Below, in pieces: positions 1 through 48,380 of a DNA stretch of 57,380 nucleotides. Under the pieces are notes generated by a model, which worked only from the letters and a program-made list of their open reading frames with translations, was not told the DNA's origin and did not search any database. The stretch is from Candidatus Methylobacter titanis (GTDB lineage Bacteria; Pseudomonadota; Gammaproteobacteria; Methylococcales; Methylomonadaceae): assembly GCA_029946125.1 (NCBI GenBank), contig JAQSDX010000020.1, forward strand, positions 1 to 57,380. Reading direction: 5' to 3'. Both the position numbers and the translations under genes were made by a program. Position 1 is the stretch's first letter, and each line of letters begins with the position of its first letter.

Positions 1-408
1 CAGTGGGCAAGGTAACGCCAGTGGAAACCAAGGTGAACCTCAGGGCAACAATGGTCATGGTAATAGCGACCAGTCTGCTTCAGGTAACTCAGGGTCTAAC
101 AATAATGCCGAAAATAGTGAGAATTCTGGACAAGGCAACAGTGGGCAAGGTAACGCCAGTGAAACCCAAGGTGAACCTCAGGGCAACAATGGTCATGGTA
201 ATGGCGACCAGTCTGCTCCAGGTAACTCAGGGTCTAACAATAATGCCGAAAATAGTGAGAATTCTGGACAAGGCAACAGTGGGCAAGGTAACGCCAGTGG
301 AAACCAAGGTGAACCTCAGGGCAACAATGGTAATGGTGACCAGTCTGCTCCAGGTAACTCAAGCTCTAACAATAATGCCGAAAATAGTGATAATTCTGGA
401 CAAGGCAA
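1..408 (+). repeat. Tandem 138-bp coding repeats (units 138, 138 and 132 bp)
   Basis: Nearly identical units begin at 1, 139 and 277, each starting CAGTGGGCAAGG. The third is six bases shorter because one Gly-His pair is missing. A degenerate fourth start occurs at 409. All unit lengths are multiples of three, so the array stays in frame and encodes low-complexity SGQGNASGNQGEPQGNNG-type repeats. Very high identity between units implies recent expansion or gene conversion; the array continues beyond the left edge. Confidence 0.9.
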
Positions 409-13786: not shown

Positions 13787-14719
13787 ATGATTCAAGGTAG
13801 TATCGTAGCATTAGTCACACCGATGGATGAACACGGTGCGGTGGATAAAGACAGCTTAAAAAGGCTGGTGGAATTTCATATAGCAGAGGGAACGGATGCC
13901 CTTGTCGCTGTTGGAACCACAGGTGAGTCGGCGACGCTGGATGAGGATGAACACTGCGCTGTGATTCAATGTGTCGTTGACTTTGTCGGCGGCAGAATGC
14001 CGGTGATTGCCGGAACCGGCGCTAATTCGACCACCGAGGCGATTACCCTGACCCGTCTGGCTAAAGAAGCCGGAGCAGATGCCTGTCTGATCGTGACCCC
14101 CTATTATAACAAGCCTACTCAGGAAGGCTTATATCTGCATTACAAGGCGATAGCCGAGGCTGTCGACATTCCCCAGATTTTATACAATGTGCCTGGGCGT
14201 ACCGCTTGCGATATGCTGCCGGAAACTGTTGGCCGCCTGTCGCATATTAAAAATATCGTCGGTGTTAAAGAAGCGACCGCTGACTTGTCCAGGGTTAAAA
14301 CAATTCGTGATTTGACTAACGATTATTTTGCCATCTATACCGGCGACGATGCGACCAGTCGAGAATTTTGTCTGCTGGGCGGCAACGGCAGTATTACGGT
14401 AACGGGCAATGTTGCTCCAAGACTGGTGCATGACATGATTAAGGCGGCGATAGCGGGCGATAGTGAAACCGCTTTAGCCATCGACAAAAAATTGGGCGCA
14501 TTACATAAAATGCTGTTTATTCAGTCTAATCCGATTCCGGTTAAATGGGCGGTCGCCGAAATGGGCTTGATGGGGAAGGGTATCCGTTTACCATTAACCT
14601 GGTTGACTGAAGATTGCTTTGATGCGGTTCGTGATGCTATGCGTCAGGCTGGAATTATATCCGGCAACTGCTCCGGGGTTGTTCTGCCTCCTGCGTCCAT
14701 ACAGTCGAACGCGTCATGA
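13787..14719 (+). CDS. dapA: 4-hydroxy-tetrahydrodipicolinate synthase
   Basis: Condenses pyruvate with aspartate semialdehyde, the first committed step of lysine and diaminopimelate synthesis. Signatures: GTTGESATL (Thr-Thr proton relay), YNVPGRT (catalytic Tyr), [11 protein letters not shown] (Schiff-base Lys), and the TIM-barrel repeats. The 310-residue length exceeds E. coli DapA (292). The extra tail, [19 protein letters not shown], starts where the normal protein ends and is encoded by what looks like a reversed, internally shortened copy of the dispersed MDAGG repeat (14661-14707). The stop overlaps the bamC start (ATGA), so the two are translationally coupled, the usual gammaproteobacterial order. 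Confidence 0.96.
14661..14707 (-). repeat. Shortened copy of the MDAGG-type repeat forming the dapA tail
   Basis: On the minus strand this reads CGACTGTATGGACGCAGGAGG, then a shortened middle, then GGAGCAGTTGCCGG. These blocks match the outer parts of the element in mfd (CGACTGCATGGATGCAGGAGG and GGAGCAATTGCCGA), about 30-40 bases of the middle being absent. Similarity judged by eye. Confidence 0.6.
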
Positions 14720-15509: not shown

Positions 15510-18500
15510 ATGTTAAAAATTTCTGGAATTTCCGCGCTTTCTGATTTTCGTATTAACAAACTACTGGCTGAGCTTCAGTCCTTAGAACCTGCTATCAAGG
15601 CCGTCTCAGCGCGGTTTATTCACTTTGTGGACATTGCAAATGACTTGAATGAAGGCCAAGCCGGGATTCTGAATCAGTTGCTGGCTTACGGCTCCACGCA
15701 AGCCAACATCGATAGTTCAGGCCAGCATTTACTGGTGGTGCCGCGCTCAGGCACGATTTCACCCTGGTCCAGTAAGGCGACCGAGATTGCCCAGCGCTGC
15801 GGATTATCCGAGGTTAAACGTATCGAGCGGGGCATTGAATACACGCTGGATAGCCATCAGCCGTTATCGGTAGCAGTGACCGCGTTATTGCATGACCGCA
15901 TGACTCAAACCGTTTTAGAGGGTGACGTTGAGCCCGAATTATTTGTTCAGCATCTGCCCAAGCCGTTATTGAGTGTCGATATTATTACGCAAGGACGTGA
16001 CGCGCTGGTTAGTGCTAATGCTGAACTGGGTCTGGCCTTGTCTGAGGATGAAATCGATTACCTGACCGATAGCTTTCAAGCCTTGGGCAGAAATCCGACC
16101 GATGTCGAATTGATGATGTTTGCCCAGGCCAATTCCGAGCATTGCCGACACAAGATTTTTAATGCCGATTGGACGATAGACGGCATAGAGCAGGCGCAAA
16201 CCTTGTTCGGCATGATCCGCAATACCGCCCAAAAAAGCCCCGAAGGCATCTTGTCGGCCTACAGCGATAACGCCTCGGTAGCGATAGGCTCAACCGCGCG
16301 GGTTTTTATCCGCAATGCGCAGACCGGCGAATATGCCTATGTCGAAGAAGAGGCGCATTTGTTGATGAAGGTGGAAACTCATAATCATCCTACCGCTATT
16401 TCACCTTATCCGGGCGCGGCAACCGGTTCCGGCGGTGAAATCCGCGATGAAGGTGCAACCGGGCGCGGCTCTTCGCCCAAAGCCGGGTTAACCGGGTTTT
16501 CGGTATCGCATTTGAAAGTACCGGGTTTTCCCCAACCCTGGGAAGCCGATAACGGCAAGCCGGAGCGTATCGCCTCGGCGTTAACGATCATGCTGGAAGG
16601 GCCGCTCGGCGGTGCGGCGTTTAATAATGAATTCGGCAGACCCAATCTGGCCGGCTATTTCCGCAGTTTCGAACAAGCGGTTCCGGGCAGTGATCATGAA
16701 TTTAGGGGCTATCACAAACCGATCATGATCGCAGGCGGCATGGGCAACATCCGGCCGATGCTGGTCGACAAACACCCGATCCCGGCCGGTTCGTTGATTA
16801 TCATCCTGGGCGGCCCGGCGATGTTAATCGGGCTGGGCGGCAGCGCCGCTTCCTCTCAGGCTTCCGGTGAAGGTTCGGAAGACCTGGATTTTGCCTCGGT
16901 GCAACGGGAAAATCCCGAAATGGAGCGCCGTTGTCAGGAAGTCATCAATCATTGCAATTCGATGGGCAACGATACGCCGATCGTGTCGATTCACGATATT
17001 GGCGCGGGCGGTTTGTCCAACGCGGTGCCGGAAATCATCCATGATTGCGATCGCGGCGGCCGCTTTGAATTGCGCAAGGTGCATAACGCCGATAAAGGCA
17101 TGTCGCCGATGCAAATCTGGTGCAATGAAGCGCAGGAACGTTATGTGGTTGCGATTAAGCCCGAGTCGCTGGCCTTATTCAGCGCCTTTTGCGAGCGCGA
17201 ACATTGCCTGTTTGCGGTAATCGGCGAGGCAACCGAACAAGAGCATTTATCGCTGAGCGACGAGTTGCTGGGCGACCAGCCGGTCGACATTCCGATGTCG
17301 GTATTATTCGGCAAGTCGCCGAAACTGCACCGCAATGTCGAGCATGTTCGACCCAACACCCAAGCGCTGGATGTTAGCGGCATCAAGCTGAGTGATGCGG
17401 TCAAGCGGGTGCTGGCATTCCCTGCGGTCGCCGACAAAAGCTTTTTGATCCATATCGGCGACCGTTCGGTCACCGGCTTGGTCGCGCGTGATCAAATGGT
17501 CGGCCCCTGGCAAACGCCGGTGGCCGATGTTGCGGTTACGGCGTCCGGTTTTCATGCGTTGACTGGCGAGGCGATGGCGATGGGGGAGCGCTCGCCGATT
17601 GCGGTGATCGACGCACCGGCATCCGGGCGTATGGCGATAGGCGAGGCCATTACCAATATTGCCGCCGCCAGCATCGATTCGTTGAAAAAAATCAAATTGT
17701 CGGCCAATTGGATGGCGGCGGCAGGTTATCAAGGCGAAGATGCGGCCTTATTCGATACCGTCAAAGCGGTGGGTATGGAATTGTGCCCGGCGCTGGGTAT
17801 CGCGATACCTGTGGGCAAGGATTCCTTGTCGATGAAAACCGTGTGGAAAGATGATTCTGCTGACGACCGTATGGATGCAGGAGGTACGACTCCAAGGATG
17901 GAGGAGGTAGAGCAACGCATGGAGCCGTTGCCGAGAGCAATTGCCGAAAAAACCATGACTGCGCCGTTATCGCTGGTGATTACCGCGTTTGCGCCGGTTG
18001 CCGATATTAGCCTTACCCTGACCCCGCAACTGCGCTGTGTGCCTGATGAAGACAGCGCCTTGATTTTGCTTGATCTGGGTGCCGGTAAAAACCGTTTGGG
18101 CGGTTCGGTGCTGGCGCAAGTCTACAACCAACTGGGCGATGATTGCCCGGATCTGGATGACGCCGGGTTATTGAAAGCCTTTTTCGATGCGATACAAACG
18201 CTGAACGGTCAAGATAAGCTGTTGAGCTATCATGACCGTTCCGATGGCGGTTTGCTGGCAACGGTGGCGGAAATGATGTTCGCCGGCAGGCTGGGCGTAA
18301 CCTTAACGCTCGATAGTATGGGCGATGATGTGCTGGCGGCGCTGTTTAATGAGGAACTGGGTGCCGTATTACAGGTGCGCCAAAGCGATTGTAAGGACAT
18401 CGTGGAGCTGTTGAATCAATCCGGTTTGATAGATTGCGTTTATGTCATAGGTAAGGTTGTTGATTACGCCATGGCTCAGTCCGAATATTGTGGGGGCGAC

Positions 18501-19541
18501 TTTGGTCGCCCTGGGCGCCTTGCGTCGCCCCCACCGGATGCAGGGCAGCAATTAACTATTCACCATTTTGGCGAGGTTATTTATTCAGCAGGCCGGGCCG
18601 AACTGCAGAGCATCTGGTCTGAACTCAGCTACAAAATGCAGGCCTTGCGCGATAACCCGGAATGCGCGCTGCAACAGTTCGAACGCATCGCCGATGATGA
18701 AGATCCCGGTTTGAATGTTGCGCTGAGCTTTGATGTCAATGACGATGTGACCGCCGTTTTTGCAACGGCTGCAAGACCTAAAGTCGCTATATTACGTGAG
18801 CAGGGCGTTAACGGTCATGTAGAAATGGCGGCGGCATTCGATCGCGCCGGATTTACCAGTATCGACGTACACATGAGCGATATTATTCATGGTCGGGTGA
18901 GCTTGGCTGATTTTGTCGGGTTGGTTGCCTGCGGTGGTTTCTCTTATGGTGACGTGCTCGGCGCCGGCGGCGGTTGGGCAAAATCGATTCTGTTCAACCC
19001 GCGCTGCCGTGATGAATTTGCCGCATTCTTTCAACGTTCCGATACTTTCGGCTTGGGCGTTTGCAACGGTTGCCAGATGATGTCGGGATTAAAAGACATT
19101 ATTCCCGGCGCCGAACATTGGCCGCGCTTCATGCGCAACACCTCCGAACAATTTGAAGCGCGGGTGGCCTTGGTCGAAGTGCAAAAATCGCCATCGATAC
19201 TGTTTGCCGGTATGGAAGGCTCCAGAATGCCGGTCGCTATTGCGCATGGGGAAGGGCGCGCAGAATTTGCTGTGGATCCGGCGGTTGCGCTGGAAGCCGG
19301 TGCGGTGGCCTTGTGTTATGTCGATAACTACGGCGAATTGACCACGGAATTCCCTGCCAACCCTAACGGTTCACCGTTCGGCATTACCGGGCTGACCACT
19401 ACCGACGGGCGCTTTACCATTATGATGCCACATCCCGAGCGTTGTTTCAGAACGCTGCAAAATTCATGGCACCCGGATGATTGGGAGGAATACGGTGCGT
19501 GGATGCGCCTGTTCAGGAACGCCAGGGTTTGGGTAGGCTAG
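15510..19541 (+). CDS. purL: Phosphoribosylformylglycinamidine synthase (FGAM synthetase)
   Basis: Large single-chain PurL of 1343 residues; it converts FGAR to FGAM with ATP and glutamine in purine synthesis. Visible are the N-terminal PurS-like region, the ATP-binding synthetase halves ([52 protein letters not shown]), and the C-terminal glutamine amidotransferase with nucleophile in [11 protein letters not shown] and HPERCFR. It is about 50 residues longer than E. coli PurL (1295); two repeat-derived inserts account for this: ~785-813 ([20 protein letters not shown]) in the loop before [15 protein letters not shown], and 994-1008 ([15 protein letters not shown]) in a loop before the linker to the amidotransferase. 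Both keep frame and miss catalytic motifs, so the enzyme should work. Confidence 0.97.
17864..17947 (+). repeat. In-frame MDAGG-type repeat inside purL
   Basis: CGACCGTATGGATGCAGGAGG, then GTACGACTCCAAGGATGG, AGGAGGTAGAGCAACGCATG and GAGCCGTTGCCGAGAGCAA. About nine in ten bases match the mfd copy (45857 on) over the shared part, and both are read in the same frame. Contains short hairpins such as TTGCCGAGAGCAA. Confidence 0.88.
18490..18534. repeat. 45-bp GC-rich palindromic repeat inserted in frame in purL
   Basis: Ends are a perfect inverted repeat, GTGGGGGCGAC (18490-18500) and GTCGCCCCCAC (18524-18534), with an inner GGGCGAC/GTCGCCC pair. Length is exactly 15 codons. Same family as 11255-11280 and 24955-25002. 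Confidence 0.85.
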
Positions 19542-20766: not shown

Positions 20767-20861
20767 GCTGATCAAATCAGCGTCCGAATGATGATTCGGG
20801 GTAAAGGGCTTTATGAATGATTTTCTTAAGCCGTTCATGCCGAATTCAGAGCAATGACTTG

Positions 20862-20944
20862 GTAGGAGCGGGCCATGCCCGCGATATGTTGGCAACGATG
20901 TGAAATCTTGACTCATAGTTTTCGCGGGCATGGCCCGCTCCTAC
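20862..20944. repeat. Perfect 23-bp inverted repeat with 37-base spacer (REP/BIME-like)
   Basis: The left arm 20862-20884 starts GTAGGAGCGGGCCATGCC and the right arm 20922-20944 is its exact reverse complement ending GGCCCGCTCCTAC. It lies between the convergent PilZ and glycine-zipper genes and could terminate both. A decayed relative is at 36039-36098. Confidence 0.9.
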
Positions 20945-21026
20945 AAAGCTTAAGCTGTTAGCGTACCCCATACATTTGTTGATTGCAGAGGATTAGTCGG
21001 CCCAATATTTCATTGGGCCGATTGGA

Positions 21027-30966: not shown

Positions 30967-31566
30967 ATGGCTAAAAACATTCGTATTGAAAGATGGAGCG
31001 GCGCAGCTCTGGAACAGTTTATTCCTGAACTCGCGCGGCTTAGAATTGAAGTGTTTCGCGACTTTCCGTATTTGTATGACGGGAACATAGATTATGAAAA
31101 AAAATATTTACAGACTTATATCGATTGTCCCGAAAGCGTCATCGTGATTGCGTTCGATGGCGATACCGTGGTCGGAGCATCGACAGCGATTCCGATGAAA
31201 TATGAAACTGATGAGCTGAAAAAACCGTTTATCGAGCAGGGTTACGATCTCGACGAGGTTTTTTATTGCAGTGAATCGGTGTTGAACAAGGCTTATCGCG
31301 GCCTGGGTATCGGCGTTAAATTTTTCGAACAAAGAGAGGCTCACGCCGAGAGTTTGGGCGGCTTCAAGCATATTTGTTTTTGTTGTGTCGAGCGACCAGT
31401 AGATCATCCCAGACGCCCGATCGATTATGTGCCTTTGGATCAATTCTGGAACAAACGCGGCTACGTCAAACATCCTGAACTTGACACAATCTATATCTGG
31501 AAAGATCTGGATGATGTTGACGAGACGCCTAAACCGATGACTTTCTGGTTGAAAAATGAACGTTAA
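30967..31566 (+). CDS. GNAT family N-acetyltransferase
   Basis: The product has 199 residues. The acetyl-CoA-binding region reads SVLNKAYRGLGIGVKFFEQREAHAE, equivalent to the Q/RxxGxG/A motif A, preceded by VVGASTAIPM. Its stop overlaps the start of the nitrilase-like gene by 11 bp. GNAT and nitrilase-type hydrolases are often fused or adjacent, so the two probably act on one metabolite; identity unknown. Confidence 0.88.
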   Translation: MAKNIRIERWSGAALEQFIPELARLRIEVFRDFPYLYDGNIDYEKKYLQTYIDCPESVIVIAFDGDTVVGASTAIPMKYETDELKKPFIEQGYDLDEVFYCSESVLNKAYRGLGIGVKFFEQREAHAESLGGFKHICFCCVERPVDHPRRPIDYVPLDQFWNKRGYVKHPELDTIYIWKDLDDVDETPKPMTFWLKNER

Positions 31567-32530
31567 AATTGCGACAGCCCAATACGACATCAGTTTTCTG
31601 GAAAACTGGCAACAGTATCAAAGCAAAGTTGAACGCTGGGTGCTTGATGCGGCGCAGCAGGATGCGAAGATTTTGCTTTTTCCCGAGTATGCCAGTATGG
31701 AATTGGCCTCGTTATTTATCGCCAGGGATGGTGTGTATGCCGTAAGCCTGTCGGGAACAGGCTCGGCGATCGCCAGGGATGGTGTGTATGCCGGAATCCT
31801 GCCGGGAGCAGGTTCGGCGGGCGAGGCGGTTTATTCATCGTTAAGCAAGCAGTTGGCAGTCATGCAGTCATTGCTTGAAGATTATCTGGACTTGTTTCAA
31901 ATGCTGGCTAAAAAATACCAGTGCATCATCCAGTCGGGCACGTTTCCGGTAAAAACAGATTCCGGCGCCTATCGAAACCGGGCTTATTTGTTTATGCCGA
32001 ACGGTCAGTTCGATTATCAGGATAAGCTGATGATGACCCGTTTTGAAAACGAGCAATGGCTGATTCAAAGCGGTGAGGAATTACGGTGTTTTGATAGCGA
32101 ATACGGAAAAATCGCCATCAATGTTTGCTATGACAGTGAATTTCCGATGCTGGCAAGAAAGCAGGTTGAAGCCGGAGCAAATCTGATTTTAGTGCCCAGT
32201 TGTACCGATACGCTGGCAGGTTATCATCGCGTCAAAATAGGCTGCCAGGCGCGAGCCTTGGAAAATCAGTGTTATGTCGTTCAAGCTGCGTTGGTAGGCA
32301 ATGCGCCTTGGTCTGAAGCCGTCGATGTCAATATCGGTGCAGCGGCTGTTTATACGCCTGTGGATCGTGGATTTCCTGATAACGGCATTTTAGCGGCAGG
32401 CAAACTCAATGCGGTACAATGGGTTGTTGCCGAAGTATCGCTCGGTGCTTGCGCTACGGTTCGGGAGCAAGGACAAGTCTTCAACTACAAAGACTGGTCA
32501 TTGCAGCATGCATTTGTTATGCGGTCCTGA
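31556..32530 (+). CDS. Nitrilase-superfamily carbon-nitrogen hydrolase with repeat insertion
   Basis: The product has 324 residues with the catalytic triad: Glu in FPEYASMEL, Lys in YQDKLMMTRFE, Cys in INVCYDSEFP. It hydrolyses amide or nitrile bonds of small molecules. Residues ~56-89 (two copies of ARDGVYAxxLxGxGSA) do not belong to the family pattern and are encoded by two tandem 51-bp repeats; they interrupt the first helix after the catalytic-Glu loop. Because the insert is in frame and close to the catalytic Glu (43), activity may be affected. Coupled to the GNAT gene. Confidence 0.9.
   Translation: MNVKIATAQYDISFLENWQQYQSKVERWVLDAAQQDAKILLFPEYASMELASLFIARDGVYAVSLSGTGSAIARDGVYAGILPGAGSAGEAVYSSLSKQLAVMQSLLEDYLDLFQMLAKKYQCIIQSGTFPVKTDSGAYRNRAYLFMPNGQFDYQDKLMMTRFENEQWLIQSGEELRCFDSEYGKIAINVCYDSEFPMLARKQVEAGANLILVPSCTDTLAGYHRVKIGCQARALENQCYVVQAALVGNAPWSEAVDVNIGAAAVYTPVDRGFPDNGILAAGKLNAVQWVVAEVSLGACATVREQGQVFNYKDWSLQHAFVMRS
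31721..31822 (+). repeat. Two tandem 51-bp repeats inserted in frame in the nitrilase gene
   Basis: Copies at 31721-31771 and 31772-31822 both start GCCAGGGATGGTGTGTATGCC. Each contains a hairpin: CCTGTCGGGAACAGG in the first and CCTGCCGGGAGCAGG in the second. The hairpin shape suggests a dispersed palindromic repeat that inserted and then duplicated. Confidence 0.9.
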
Positions 32531-43942: not shown

Positions 43943-44414
43943 ATGAGAAATCATGGCGATTTCAGGCTGTGCAAGAATCACATCTTGTGATTTTGTAGAG
44001 TGACCTGAAAGCGGCAAAAATATGCAGAGAAACTGCGTTAGCAGATAGGGGGTAATAGCTCGGCAATTGTTCCTGCATTGCTCTCGGCAACCGCTCCATG
44101 CGTTGCTCTACCTCCCCCATCCTTGGGGTCGTACCTCTTTGCATAACCCACAAGGATGTGGGGAAAGCTTCCGCCCCTTACCTACATCCGTGTAGGCAAT
44201 GCAGATTTTGCATGGAGCAAAAATCTGTCCATGCGAGTCGTAAAGCGCCTATTGTTGGTATCGCGTATTGCGCCGAATGAGAGTCTCGCCATGCGACACA
44301 ATACGTTACGCCCAGGTTCTACGGATTGTGCCTTCGGCGGTTCCCCCTTCTTTTCAGCTATGCGATGCGATGTTTTGGGCTTGGCCGAGCAGATTTAGTT
44401 GCAGCAAAGAGAGA
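43943..44414. other. 472-bp intergenic region built of repeats
   Basis: No supported gene. 44060-44143 holds an inverted copy of the MDAGG element. Further along, GTAGGCAATGCAGATTTTGC and GCATGGAGCAAAAATCTGTC have paired halves. GCGCCTATTGTTGGTA near 44247 matches the icd upstream region, and alternating GCGTATTGCGC/ATGCGACACAATACGTTACG stretches look like decayed palindromes. Confidence 0.6.
44060..44143 (-). repeat. Intergenic copy of the MDAGG-type repeat
   Basis: On the minus strand: ATGCAAAGAGGTACGACCCC, AAGGATGGGGGAGGTAGAGC, AACGCATGGAGCGGTTGCCG, AGAGCAATGCAGGAACAATT. Nearly the same order as in mfd and purL, with AAAG for CAGG at the 5' part. Confidence 0.85.
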
Positions 44415-44825: not shown

Positions 44826-47800
44826 ATGGCTACACATCAAACACTAATTTTTTCCCCTAAAATTCCGCAGAAACAAGATCAATCGTTCATCTGGACCGGT
44901 TTAACCGGCTGTGGTGATTCGTTGGCATTGGCTTCTGCCATTAAAAATGAAGATTGTTTGTTTGTTATTGTGACGCGGGATAATCAGACCGCGTTGCGGC
45001 TTGAGCATGAGTTGTCGTTCTTCTTGCAGGGCGAATATCCCATTTTGCATTTCCCCGATTGGGAAACCTTGCCGTACGATGTGTTCTCGCCGTTGCCGGA
45101 AATCATCTCGGAGCGGCTCAAAACGCTGGCCTTGTTGCCGCAGGTCAAACGTGGCGCACTGGTGGTTTCGGTGACTACATTAATGCACAGATTAGCACCT
45201 CGTGAGCATGTGCTGGCTAACAGTTTTGCGGTTAATGTCGGCGATGACTTTAATCTGGAGCTGAACCGCATCAAGCTGGAAAGCGTCGGTTATCATTGTG
45301 TTTCGCAAGTCTACCAACACGGTGAATTTGCGGTCAGGGGTTCGATAGTCGATTTGTTTCCGATGGGCAGCAAGGTGCCGTTTCGTATCGAATTATTCGA
45401 TGAAGAAGTCGAATCTATCCGCACTTTCGATGCTGAAACGCAGCGGTCATTGGAAAAAATCGACAAGATTCAGTTGTTCCCAGCACGGGAGTTTCCGTTA
45501 ACCGATGAATCCATCAAGCATTTTCGTCAGGGTTTCAGGGATGCTTTCCCGGAAACTTCGCCTAAAAATCATTTTTATATGGATGTCAGTAAAGGCATTA
45601 CGCCCGGCGGCATTGAATATTATTTGCCGCTGTTCGTAGAGCAAATGGCATCATTATTTGATTATTTGCCAAAGTCCGCGGTTGTGGTGATGTCGGATAG
45701 TTTTGACGCAAATTCACGGGCTTTTTATGCCGAAGCCGAGGACAGGTTTCAGCAAAGAAAATATGATGCAGATAGGCCGTTATTGAAACCGGAATTGCTG
45801 TTTTTATCGACGAATGAGCTGGCGCAAAGAACCGGCGCATTTGCCCGGATTATTCTCGACTGCATGGATGCAGGAGGTACGACTCCATGGATGGAGGAGG
45901 TAGAGCAATGCATGGAGCAATTGCCGAGAGCAATGCAGGGAGCAATTGCCGAAGATGGCATCGTTGCGGATGCCGATAGCATTGTTTTCAATTGTCAGCC
46001 GTTGCCCAATGTCACTATCGATGTCAAGCATGAGCAACCGGCGCAGGCATTGCAACAGTTTGTCGATAGCTTTGCCGGTAAGATTTTGTTTGTTGCAGAA
46101 TCGGCAGGACGCCGCGAAGCCTTAATGGAGAGGTTAAGGCAGTATAAAATCAGCGTGAAACAGGTCGAAAGCTGGGATAAGTTTCTCCAGTCGGAACTGT
46201 CGCCCTGCATTCTTGTTGCGCCGATGGATCATGGCTTATGGCTAACAAATCCGGCTATCGCGATCATCACCGAAAACCTGCTATCCGGCGAGAAAGTACA
46301 GCAACGGCGCAGACGGCGTAAGTCTGCGGCGCATGAGCTGGAAAATATCGTCAATAACCTGAATGAATTGACCCTAGGTTCGCCGGTGGTGCATCAGGAG
46401 CATGGCGTGGGCCGCTATTTGGGTTTGCAGACTCTTGAGATTGGCGGCATCACGTCGGAATTCCTGGCTTTGGAATACGCCAATAACGACAAGCTTTACG
46501 TGCCGGTTTCGGCCTTGCATGTGATCGGTCGTTACACCGGCGTGAGCCCGGAAAATGCGCCTTTGCATAAGCTGGGCGGCGACCAGTGGAATAAGGTCAA
46601 GCAAAAAGCCATTAAGCGCATCCGCGATGTCGCCGCAGAATTGCTGGAAATTCATGCCAAAAGAGCGGTCAAGCAAGGCCATGCCTTTCAGGTTGAAAAT
46701 ATCGAATACGCGGCTTTTGCCGACGCGTTCCCGTTTGAAGAAACGCCGGATCAGCAGACTGCGATCGAAACGATACTCGAAGACATGGCCAGCCCCCATC
46801 CTATGGACCGGGTGATTTGCGGCGATGTCGGTTTCGGTAAAACCGAGGTGTCAATGCGGGCGGCATTTATTGCGGTACAAAACGGCAAGCAGGTGGCGAT
46901 ATTGGTGCCGACCACTTTGCTGGCGCAACAGCATTTTCAGAATTTTCGCGACCGCTTTGCCGACTGGCCGGTACGCGTCGAAGTGCTGTCGCGTTTTGTC
47001 AGTCCCAAGCAGCAAAAAGAGATTGCCGATGATCTGGAGCAGGGCAAGGTCGATATCGTCATCGGTACGCACAAGTTATTGTCGAAAGAGGTCAAATATA
47101 AAGCGTTGGGACTGGTGGTGATTGATGAAGAACACCGTTTCGGCGTGACCCAAAAAGAGCATTTCAAAAAGCTGCGCAATGAACTGGACATGCTGACACT
47201 GACGGCAACGCCAATTCCGCGCACCTTGAATATGGCAATGTCGGGTCTAAGGGACATATCCATTATCGCCAGTCCGCCGCCGAATCGCCATGCGATCAAA
47301 ACCTTTATCAGCGAATGGATAGATGCACAGATCAGGGAAGCCTGTTTACGCGAAATCAAGCGTGGCGGACAGGTGTTCTTTTTGCATAATGAAGTGAAAA
47401 CGATGGAGAAAATGGCCCGGGAGCTGGAGGCTCTGGTGCCCGAGGCGCGGATAGAAATTGCGCACGGACAAATGCCGGAGCGCCAGTTGGAGCGCATCAT
47501 GCTGGATTTTTATCATCAGCGCTTTAACCTGTTGTTGTGTTCGACCATTATTGAAAGCGGCATCGACATCCCCAGTGCCAATACCATTATTATCAATCGC
47601 GCCGATAAATTAGGACTGGCGCAACTGCATCAGTTGCGCGGCCGGGTAGGGCGCTCGCATCACCGGGCTTATGCCTATTTTGTGGTGCCGCCAAAAACCT
47701 TAATGAGCAAGGATGCGATTAAACGTCTGGAAGCGGTTGAAGCGTCCGGCGATTTGGGCGCCGGTTTCATGCTGTCCTCGCATGACATGGAAATTCGCGG

Positions 47801-48380
47801 CGCGGGCGAGTTATTGGGCGATGACCAAAGCGGTCAAATCCAGGAAATCGGCTTTACCCTGTATACCGAATTGCTGGAACGCGCCGTCAGCGCGTTAAAA
47901 TCCGGCAAACAGCCGGAGCTTGATACCCCGATGGACAGAGGGCCGGAAGTCGATCTGCAAACCTCGGTGCTGATTCCTGAAGACTATCTGCCGGATATTC
48001 ATGGCCGTCTGGTGTTGTATAAACGCATCTCCAATACTGAAACCAAGGACGATTTACGCGAACTACAAGTGGAAATGATCGATCGTTTCGGCTTATTTCC
48101 GGAGCCGGTAAAAGCGTTGTTCAGTGTCACTGAATTAAAGCAGCAGGCCGAAAAACTGGGCATCAAGAAAATAGAGGCCAACGCAGGCGGCGGGCGCATT
48201 ATTTTTTCTGCGACGCCTAATATCAATACCGACCAGCTGATTTCGTTGATACAAACCCAGGCGCAGCTTTATAAATTCGATGGTGCGGACAAGTTAAGGT
48301 TCAGCAAACCGTTTGAAACGACCGAGCAGAAGCTTGAGTTTATCACCGAGTTGCTCGATAAACTCACCGTAAAAAAATGA
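44826..48380 (+). CDS. mfd: Transcription-repair coupling factor
   Basis: The product has 1184 residues (E. coli 1148). It displaces stalled RNA polymerase and recruits UvrA. Visible are the UvrB-like N-terminal region (FPDWETLPYDVFSPLPEIISERL), the RNA-polymerase-interacting domain (SPVVHQEHGVGRYLGL), the SF2 helicase with GDVGFGKTEVSMRAAF, DEEHRFG, TLTATPIPRTL, GQMPERQLERIM and TIIESGIDIPSANT, and the C-terminal TRCF domain. Residues ~344-376 ([20 protein letters not shown] and on to IAEDG) are a repeat-derived insert accounting for most of the extra length; it lies in the N-terminal part, outside the motor. The stop overlaps csiV (ATGA). Confidence 0.97.
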   Translation: MATHQTLIFSPKIPQKQDQSFIWTGLTGCGDSLALASAIKNEDCLFVIVTRDNQTALRLEHELSFFLQGEYPILHFPDWETLPYDVFSPLPEIISERLKTLALLPQVKRGALVVSVTTLMHRLAPREHVLANSFAVNVGDDFNLELNRIKLESVGYHCVSQVYQHGEFAVRGSIVDLFPMGSKVPFRIELFDEEVESIRTFDAETQRSLEKIDKIQLFPAREFPLTDESIKHFRQGFRDAFPETSPKNHFYMDVSKGITPGGIEYYLPLFVEQMASLFDYLPKSAVVVMSDSFDANSRAFYAEAEDRFQQRKYDADRPLLKPELLFLSTNELAQRTGAFARIILDCMDAGGTTPWMEEVEQCMEQLPRAMQGAIAEDGIVADADSIVFNCQPLPNVTIDVKHEQPAQALQQFVDSFAGKILFVAESAGRREALMERLRQYKISVKQVESWDKFLQSELSPCILVAPMDHGLWLTNPAIAIITENLLSGEKVQQRRRRRKSAAHELENIVNNLNELTLGSPVVHQEHGVGRYLGLQTLEIGGITSEFLALEYANNDKLYVPVSALHVIGRYTGVSPENAPLHKLGGDQWNKVKQKAIKRIRDVAAELLEIHAKRAVKQGHAFQVENIEYAAFADAFPFEETPDQQTAIETILEDMASPHPMDRVICGDVGFGKTEVSMRAAFIAVQNGKQVAILVPTTLLAQQHFQNFRDRFADWPVRVEVLSRFVSPKQQKEIADDLEQGKVDIVIGTHKLLSKEVKYKALGLVVIDEEHRFGVTQKEHFKKLRNELDMLTLTATPIPRTLNMAMSGLRDISIIASPPPNRHAIKTFISEWIDAQIREACLREIKRGGQVFFLHNEVKTMEKMARELEALVPEARIEIAHGQMPERQLERIMLDFYHQRFNLLLCSTIIESGIDIPSANTIIINRADKLGLAQLHQLRGRVGRSHHRAYAYFVVPPKTLMSKDAIKRLEAVEASGDLGAGFMLSSHDMEIRGAGELLGDDQSGQIQEIGFTLYTELLERAVSALKSGKQPELDTPMDRGPEVDLQTSVLIPEDYLPDIHGRLVLYKRISNTETKDDLRELQVEMIDRFGLFPEPVKALFSVTELKQQAEKLGIKKIEANAGGGRIIFSATPNINTDQLISLIQTQAQLYKFDGADKLRFSKPFETTEQKLEFITELLDKLTVKK
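45857..45953 (+). repeat. In-frame MDAGG-type repeat inside mfd
   Basis: CGACTGCATGGATGCAGGAGG start, then GTACGACTCCATGGATGG, AGGAGGTAGAGCAATGCATG, GAGCAATTGCCGAGAGCAAT, GCAGGGAGCAATTGCCGA. Longer than the purL copy because GAGCAATTGCCGA-type units appear twice. Same reading frame as in purL. Confidence 0.88.

Follow-up and report, generated by a model that had tools for sequence, protein, structure and literature searches.

Introduction

GTAG REPs are short hairpins with the tetranucleotide GTAG at one foot, and they occur in dozens to thousands of copies, mostly outside genes. In the passages of PMC3733652 that deal with them, GTAG and CGTC REPs are also reported inside genes in several species, many in repair genes and some within DNA repair and tRNA synthetase genes, and two views are discussed there, that the insertions are neutral because they fall in flexible linkers or loops, or that they affect the repair genes. 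The corresponding transposases are described in part of PMC8266576 as cutting at CT or CA, or at GA or GT for the GTAC variant, and both IS200/IS605 and TnpA-REP enzymes act there on hairpin substrates with GTAG as a guide. RPEs, which are 105-146 or ~150 bp long, lie in frame in many unrelated conserved proteins of Rickettsia, and in the case of Gmk the product is reported to be translated with a neutral effect on function (relevant sections of PMC2229807 and PMC10969869). The MITEs Correia/NEMIS, ERIC and RUP are small non-autonomous repeats with short imperfect inverted ends that are able to fuse to reading frames and that come with target duplications; in some MITEs the ends are only 7-9 bp long (as outlined in PMC2229807).

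As intragenic REPs and in-frame RPEs have both been published, a repeat of this kind is already known in principle. Here we describe a family from Methylobacter and its relatives which we consider very probably to be a short palindromic mobile element, selfish and similar to REPs and RPEs, that is tolerated within genes, where its reading frame follows from the insertion target, from stop codons and from some purging. Within the literature searched, the following appear to be new: the family itself and the group of hosts that carries it, the unit of 23+25 nt, the counts of frame, strand and length and the repeated use of the same sites. No paper on this repeat family was among the literature matches listed, which is not proof of absence, and the main text of PMC3733652 contains none of the strings 'methylo', 'mfd' and 'purl'. 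A free-living and partly culturable genus makes it possible to count palindromic insertions that are in frame, to date them by comparison with empty sites and to put them to the test, and the question raised by RPEs, why they lie in frame and whether the peptide is selected, can be turned into statistics on length, frame, strand and target.

Results and Discussion

The repeat in Mfd and PurL

The window, i.e. the whole stretch of 57,380 nucleotides of Candidatus Methylobacter titanis analysed here, contains on its forward strand an ORF at 44826-48380 that encodes the transcription-repair coupling factor Mfd, as identified by Pfam (UvrB_inter, MFD_D3, RID, DEAD and TRCF) and by a match to PDB 2EYQ. 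The nearest Mfd relatives of the window genome, which comprises 3.5 Mb in 146 contigs, are from Methylobacter. Comparison at the DNA level with a relative that has an empty site, ATTATTCT-T-GATGG (L046), shows that the window has 96 additional bases at this point. This element (CGACTGC...TTGCCGA, 45857-45952) is in frame and is situated upstream of domain D3; the preliminary description had reported an in-frame repeat here, with its end at 45953, one base too far. The element is composed of two 23-nt hairpin units (H1; 45857-45879 and 45880-45902, forward strand) and two 25-nt hairpin units (H2; 45903-45927 and 45928-45952, forward strand). The second H1 ends with the GGTA of a GGTAG motif and the first G of the H2 that follows completes the GTAG.

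Across the 23 genomes of the genus the Mfd insert is present in two, the window genome and its closest relative G011, and absent from 20, while G009 is too short at this place to be judged; 17 of the empty calls were read at the site and three come from a break in the alignment. In G011 the insert is at the same site in a diverged and shorter form of 84 nt (L045). Mfd from another Methylococcaceae genome (L099) has an unrelated insert in the same linker.

A second genic copy is found in purL (15510-19541, forward strand; ORF, Pfam and PDB 1T3T). This element of 84 nt at 17864-17947, also on the forward strand, is made up of 23+23+25+13 nt and its first unit is in the same frame as in Mfd. The Mfd and PurL copies are 92% identical over 78 nt of DNA and agree at 16 of the 20 residues of the peptide that the preliminary description called nearly identical. 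The next best copy of the Mfd insert in the genome has an E value of 3e-40, which excludes chance. The window holds two further copies, both on the reverse strand: an intergenic one of 72 nt upstream of mfd (44060-44131) and a degenerate one of 47 nt over the 3′ end of a dapA-like ORF (14661-14707), where the antisense reading gives some of the last residues. The names dapA, cobT, NtrC, PhoR and RAYT and the species of the PDB entries were assigned provisionally from the look of the sequence and from Pfam and PDB titles.

Similar copies could be misassembled in a genome of 146 contigs, and one might ask whether the repeats in Mfd and PurL are a matter of chance or artefact, produced by misassembly or by gene conversion between copies. 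This is scarcely credible given the diverged, shorter insert at the same Mfd site in G011, the PurL insert in G003 and the ORFs that are open throughout; separate assemblies contradict it.

Structure and distribution of the family

The common and minimal form of the repeat is 48 nt long (CGACTGC...TTGCCGA) and consists of the 23-nt hairpin H1 followed by the GTAG-tagged 25-nt hairpin H2; the larger forms of 84 and 96 nt are built by the addition of whole or shortened units. The stem of H1 has 5 bp and that of H2 has 5 bp and two inner pairs. In 36 distinct units 97.9% of the pair cells hold standard pairs, 21 cells have changed on both sides compared with 4.6 in shuffles (none of 500 shuffles was as high) and pairing falls to 13-57% when the partner is slid by 1-3 columns. 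Taken together, these results indicate that the hairpins are kept and not the letters alone. Of 131 elements, 125 have GTAG at the foot of H2, though as the search patterns themselves hold GTAG a fairer figure is the 33 of 37 among elements of the window genome that were found by BLAST rather than by the pattern. The alignment A1, from whose 28 listed units L039 with its diverged 3′ half was excluded and to which ten units from longer elements were added, cannot serve for this comparison as its rows were chosen for GGTA and G at these positions. At the ends of the element the first seven bases pair with the seven before the last four at 5 or 6 of the 7 places in 100 of the 131 elements, an imperfect pairing that may or may not be comparable to the short inverted ends of the MITEs.

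The repeat shares several features with GTAG REPs. H1 and H2 both fall within the range of 5-13 bp for the stem and 2-20 for the loop, an unpaired GTAG stands at the foot of one hairpin, and most elements (100 of 141, see below) are outside Pfam-supported ORFs. In contrast to GTAG REPs, head-to-head dimers do not predominate: among neighbouring profile hits at most 100 nt apart, only 2 pairs have opposite orientations compared with 48 that share one, the 48 including parts of one element. The Methylobacter unit also differs in that two dissimilar hairpins of 23 and 25 nt are always paired in a single orientation, and in having no clear linkage to RAYT genes.

Copies of the family are found in all 23 genomes of the genus at an E value of 1e-5, and a survey at the level of the taxonomic family found them in 74 of 151 genomes and 20 of 29 genera; the copy numbers per genome in this survey are lower bounds, since at most six candidates were scored in each. 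Allowing up to two mismatches, the pattern matches 40 places in the window genome (G000), 113 in G021, 119 in G010 and 61 in G014, while the reversed pattern used as a control gave 0 in each. One contig of G010 (C66, 21-188) carries a tandem array of four pattern matches at an exact spacing of 48 nt. Many copies are nested in other repeats as composite elements (L026, L033, L188, L189, L249, L032 and others, with the flanks cacgaa/gacacg, gggcgtgagca/ggagcgg and gggtta/, the slash marking the junction), so that only some copies may have moved as the 48-nt unit by itself.

Empty sites and insertion target

Filled and empty sites were compared at the DNA level in five genes, with inserts of 96 nt in Mfd, 84 in PurL, 48 in LeuS, 48 in CysN and 96 in AcnB. 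None of the five requires a target duplication, in contrast to the MITEs Correia/NEMIS, ERIC and RUP, and in CysN the junction CT/GG has no shared bases. The LeuS site, CAGGA/AAAGTAT when empty, carries the 48-nt insert in three of 21 genomes (G014, G007 and G001), a different repeat of 51 nt is nearby in three and 15 are empty. At CysN (ACT/GGATTTA) the insert of 48 nt is present in one of 25 judged loci, paralogues being counted. The PurL site (GA/AAAAACC) holds 84 nt in the window genome and in G003 and a chimeric form of 69 nt in G009; G017, G018 and G008 have long unrelated inserts and 15 of 21 are empty. The one in G008 (L308) is an in-frame low-complexity insert of ~1.1 kb at the same PurL site. 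At AcnB 96 nt are present in G014 and variant inserts in G006 and G008, with 17 of 20 sites empty. The base preceding simple copies is an A in 65 of 88 cases, and the dinucleotide on the left is GA in 35, TA in 18, CA in 10 and CT in 4 of the 88.

For each of LeuS, PurL and AcnB, the genomes with the insert are not grouped as a clade on a four-protein tree, which was midpoint-rooted, is without support values and has missing columns in several genomes. This fits parallel insertion at the same sites. For AcnB, transfer between species is also possible, because G006 and G008 share unusual bases around the site. The presence of inserts at the same site in separate lineages is the most unusual point of the family.

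Copies within genes

For the census of genic copies 141 elements were taken as a partial sample from three of the 23 genus genomes, 43 from the window genome, 68 from G010 and 30 from G014; G021 lies outside the sample. The window genome was represented by 40 of the 72 candidates of a BLAST-type search that were scored and by six further places, G010 by 64 regions that take in the 67 zero-mismatch places among the 100 matches listed out of 119, and G014 by 29 regions that take in the 31 zero-mismatch places among the 50 matches listed out of 61. Fifty of the 141 elements lie inside an ORF with at least 25 residues on each side and at least 110 in total. The host ORF is supported by Pfam in 41 of these (41 of 141 elements), whereas the other nine had no Pfam family above the cut-off and were not counted, leaving 100 of the 141 elements outside Pfam-supported ORFs. 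Five calls at or before the likely true start, or unclear (L019, L203, L215, L240 and L244), and five shared insertions (L173, L190, L232, L250 and L162; recognised as shared by visual comparison of the neighbouring residues) were then dropped, giving 31 distinct and unambiguous genic copies, 15 in the window genome, 12 in G010 and 4 in G014.

The host genes come from unrelated Pfam families and include Mfd, PurL, MutL, UvrD, LeuS, AcnB and CysN. The insert is between the middle and C-terminal domains in MutL, within UvrD_C in UvrD and between the rod-binding and glucosaminidase domains in FlgJ; in a nitrogenase-type oxidoreductase, CobS, a FadB-like protein and others it either lies in a linker or splits a Pfam domain. 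With 31 distinct cases in three genomes the family resembles the RPEs, which are likewise in-frame palindromic insertions in unrelated conserved genes, and is set apart from them by size (48, 84 or 96 nt) and by its methanotroph host. One copy (L028, 2001-2048) interrupts the region of the HxH motif in a RAYT-like ORF and adds an in-frame stop, a landing that breaks its gene.

Dozens of genes have been hit by the repeat, apparently without being broken. Its survival there is best explained by a length that is usually a multiple of the codon, by a 48-nt unit with five open frames out of six and by sites in permissive linkers. The inserts mark such permissive linkers in conserved proteins and could point to sites for tagging.

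Length, frame and strand

Among simple elements, the length is a multiple of the codon in 20 of 22 copies in genes compared with 34 of 60 elsewhere (P 0.004), which fits well with the initial suggestion that only stop-free insertions survive. One of the two exceptions, L208, has more repeat sequence upstream. In the composite classes codon multiples make up 2/2, 5/5 and 1/1 of the copies in genes and 1/7, 9/17, 1/1 and 1/3 of those elsewhere. The tandem19 class has 0/3 in genes and 1/4 elsewhere; its three genic cases all measure 77 nt by the script, and reach 96 only if a partial unit of 19 nt upstream is counted. Ten of the 141 elements have no two clear ends and are excluded from these counts.

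The 48-nt consensus can be read without a stop in all three antisense frames and in two of the sense frames, the third sense frame being closed by the TAG contained in GGTAG; the 96-nt Mfd copy has a different closed sense frame. All five open frames occur in genes, where they give different peptides. A frame could be assigned in 29 of the 31 strict cases, 16 of which use the frame seen in Mfd and PurL (A), six another sense frame (four B and two shifted by an extra base in H1) and seven an antisense frame. The shared frame of the preliminary description is therefore correct for the first unit of the Mfd and PurL copies and is the majority choice, but it is not a rule. In the sampled copies the repeat is neither confined to intergenic DNA apart from these two genes nor random in frame: prior to strict filtering frame A accounts for 18 of 34 copies, more than if the five frames were used equally (P 2e-5). 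In the coding DNA of the window GA dinucleotides mostly open GAN codons, which gives expected shares of 0.71 for frame A and 0.29 for B, and 12 of the 14 GA-flanked strict genic copies are in frame A. The excess is thus partly due to the target.

The repeat lies on the gene-sense strand in 24 of the 31 copies (P 2.5e-5 against an expectation of 0.4, 0.0017 against 0.5 and 0.02 against 0.58). For the simple genic copies 17 of 22 are in sense compared with 12.2 expected, with a P of 0.0045 when flanks are matched and 0.029 when co-orientation is added, the latter being taken from 100 same and 73 opposite arrangements around other copies using unvalidated open frames of at least 150 codons. The flank-matched and co-orientation nulls weaken the unmatched frame null. 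In the 48-nt unit the antisense readings are also the more hydrophobic, with GRAVY values of 0.47 to 0.71 compared with -0.07 and -1.43 in sense.

It may be that the target and the stop codons alone produce the bias in frame, the peptide not being selected at all. A GA target is expected to put sense copies mainly in frame A, as seen above, and the sense excess comes down to a P of 0.029 after all controls; we regard this as a reasonable possibility but not the one we favour, as the sense excess persists among the simple copies and the antisense readings are the more hydrophobic. A modest purge of antisense readings is likely. From the counts of frame, target and strand, no special selection is required for Mfd and PurL to share a frame. 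It had been proposed that a soluble peptide is selected, and the 24 of 31 copies in sense do suggest this, but with the controls P rises from 2.5e-5 to about 0.03 and there is little constraint on the insert in Mfd.

Constraint and predicted structure of the inserts

Between the window genome and G011 the insert in Mfd has 6 nonsynonymous and 2 synonymous changes, compared with ~22 and ~122 in the rest of the gene (P 0.0005). On these substitution counts the Mfd peptide is far less constrained than the remainder of the protein. In PurL of the window genome and G003 the difference at synonymous sites is 0.11 in the insert and 0.48 in the rest, which is compatible with a separate or later insertion. 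At the amino-acid level the PurL insert does not evolve faster in this pair (pN 0.058 compared with 0.062 for the rest).

In an AlphaFold2 model of residues 1-560 of Mfd, made with 30 sequences, the only long stretch with a pLDDT below 50 is 347-381, between two strands, and the insert is predicted to be disordered; the low value is partly expected, because only one other of the 30 aligned sequences has the insert. With respect to known structures, the chain of 2EYQ is aligned up to position 340 and resumes at 356 at the Mfd site, and the PurL site falls between positions 797 and 799 of 1T3T.

Might the peptide instead have been placed in Mfd, PurL and further hosts as a functional module under selection, for instance as an interaction tag or a regulatory tag common to them? 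The inserts at the same sites of LeuS, PurL and AcnB in separate lineages, the sense bias of 24 of 31 and the repair proteins MutL, UvrD and Mfd among the hosts would be in keeping with this. That the five open frames encode different peptides and are all found in genes, that 20 of the 22 judged Mfd orthologues of the genus lack the insert, that constraint in Mfd is weak and that the hosts belong to unrelated Pfam families makes such a role very unlikely.

The family with its units, the empty sites, the open frames and their bias, and the weak constraint and predicted disorder of the Mfd insert are direct observations. For the tolerated mobile element that we favour, its selfish nature, its way of moving and the normal working of the host proteins are what we infer from these comparisons. 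The element would insert precisely, without target duplication and preferably after ...GA. A landing in a gene would add 16, 28 or 32 codons, free of stops in most frames, and in a permissive loop or linker it would leave a working protein with a disordered peptide under loose constraint; insertions that destroy the gene through their frame or position would be lost. The frame common to Mfd and PurL could then come from the GA target, which is often the start of an Asp or Glu codon, and from the GGTAG that closes one sense frame, with purging of the more hydrophobic antisense readings as a probable third factor.

A more speculative idea, and one that we think is rather improbable, is that the element is itself adapted to life in genes. 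The unit of 48 nt (3 x 16), the five open frames, the larger forms in codon multiples, the hydrophilic sense readings and a GA target that leads to a good frame might all be seen in this light, and linkers would be reproducible niches for selfish DNA, to judge by the way in which separate lineages have the element at the same few permissive codons in LeuS, in PurL and in AcnB.

Candidates for the mobilising enzyme

The family may be mobilised as a cognate GTAG REP by the RAYT (TnpA-REP, an HUH transposase) of Methylobacter. The hairpin with GTAG at its foot, similar to the hairpin substrates and GTAG guide of IS200/IS605 and TnpA-REP, and the empty sites without target duplication both suggest this. 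Insertion without target duplication is a property of the IS200/IS605 family. The right end of the element, ...GA, is the same as the favoured left flank, which would be expected of single-strand transposition. RAYT-like genes are present in 20 of the 23 genomes; one that is intact has a copy 48 bp upstream, and in the window genome two of the six loci found with the Y1_Tnp Pfam model have a copy. Over all genomes, a copy is nearby in the fetched flanks of 4 of 30 RAYT loci, one of these copies being inside the RAYT gene itself (P ~0.09 against an assumed mean of 1.7), and the remaining 26 have none in those flanks. As linkage is not clearly above chance, a RAYT parent is no more than plausible. 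Moreover, the GTAG REP transposases described in part of PMC8266576 cleave CT or CA, while here CT precedes few of the 88 simple copies and GA the most, so that neither the cleavage dinucleotides nor the RAYT linkage clearly matches IS200/IS605 and TnpA-REP. On balance we treat the RAYT as a tentative candidate, with the odds somewhat against it. No parent IS was recognised between closely spaced copies at six paired-copy loci, where the ORFs, judged by eye, are like host genes.

Other repeats in the window

A second family of in-frame repeats, 51 nt long (IARDGVYA...LPGAGSA), is present as two tandem copies at 31718-31819 in a nitrilase-like ORF (31556-32530). It also occurs near the N-terminus of LeuS, with one copy each in three other genomes (L322, L330 and L331). 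A second type of palindrome is found between ORFs at 20858-20948, an inverted repeat of 27 nt that is 96% complementary with a spacer of 37 nt, and tandem units of 138 nt lie inside an ORF at the start of the window (1-408).
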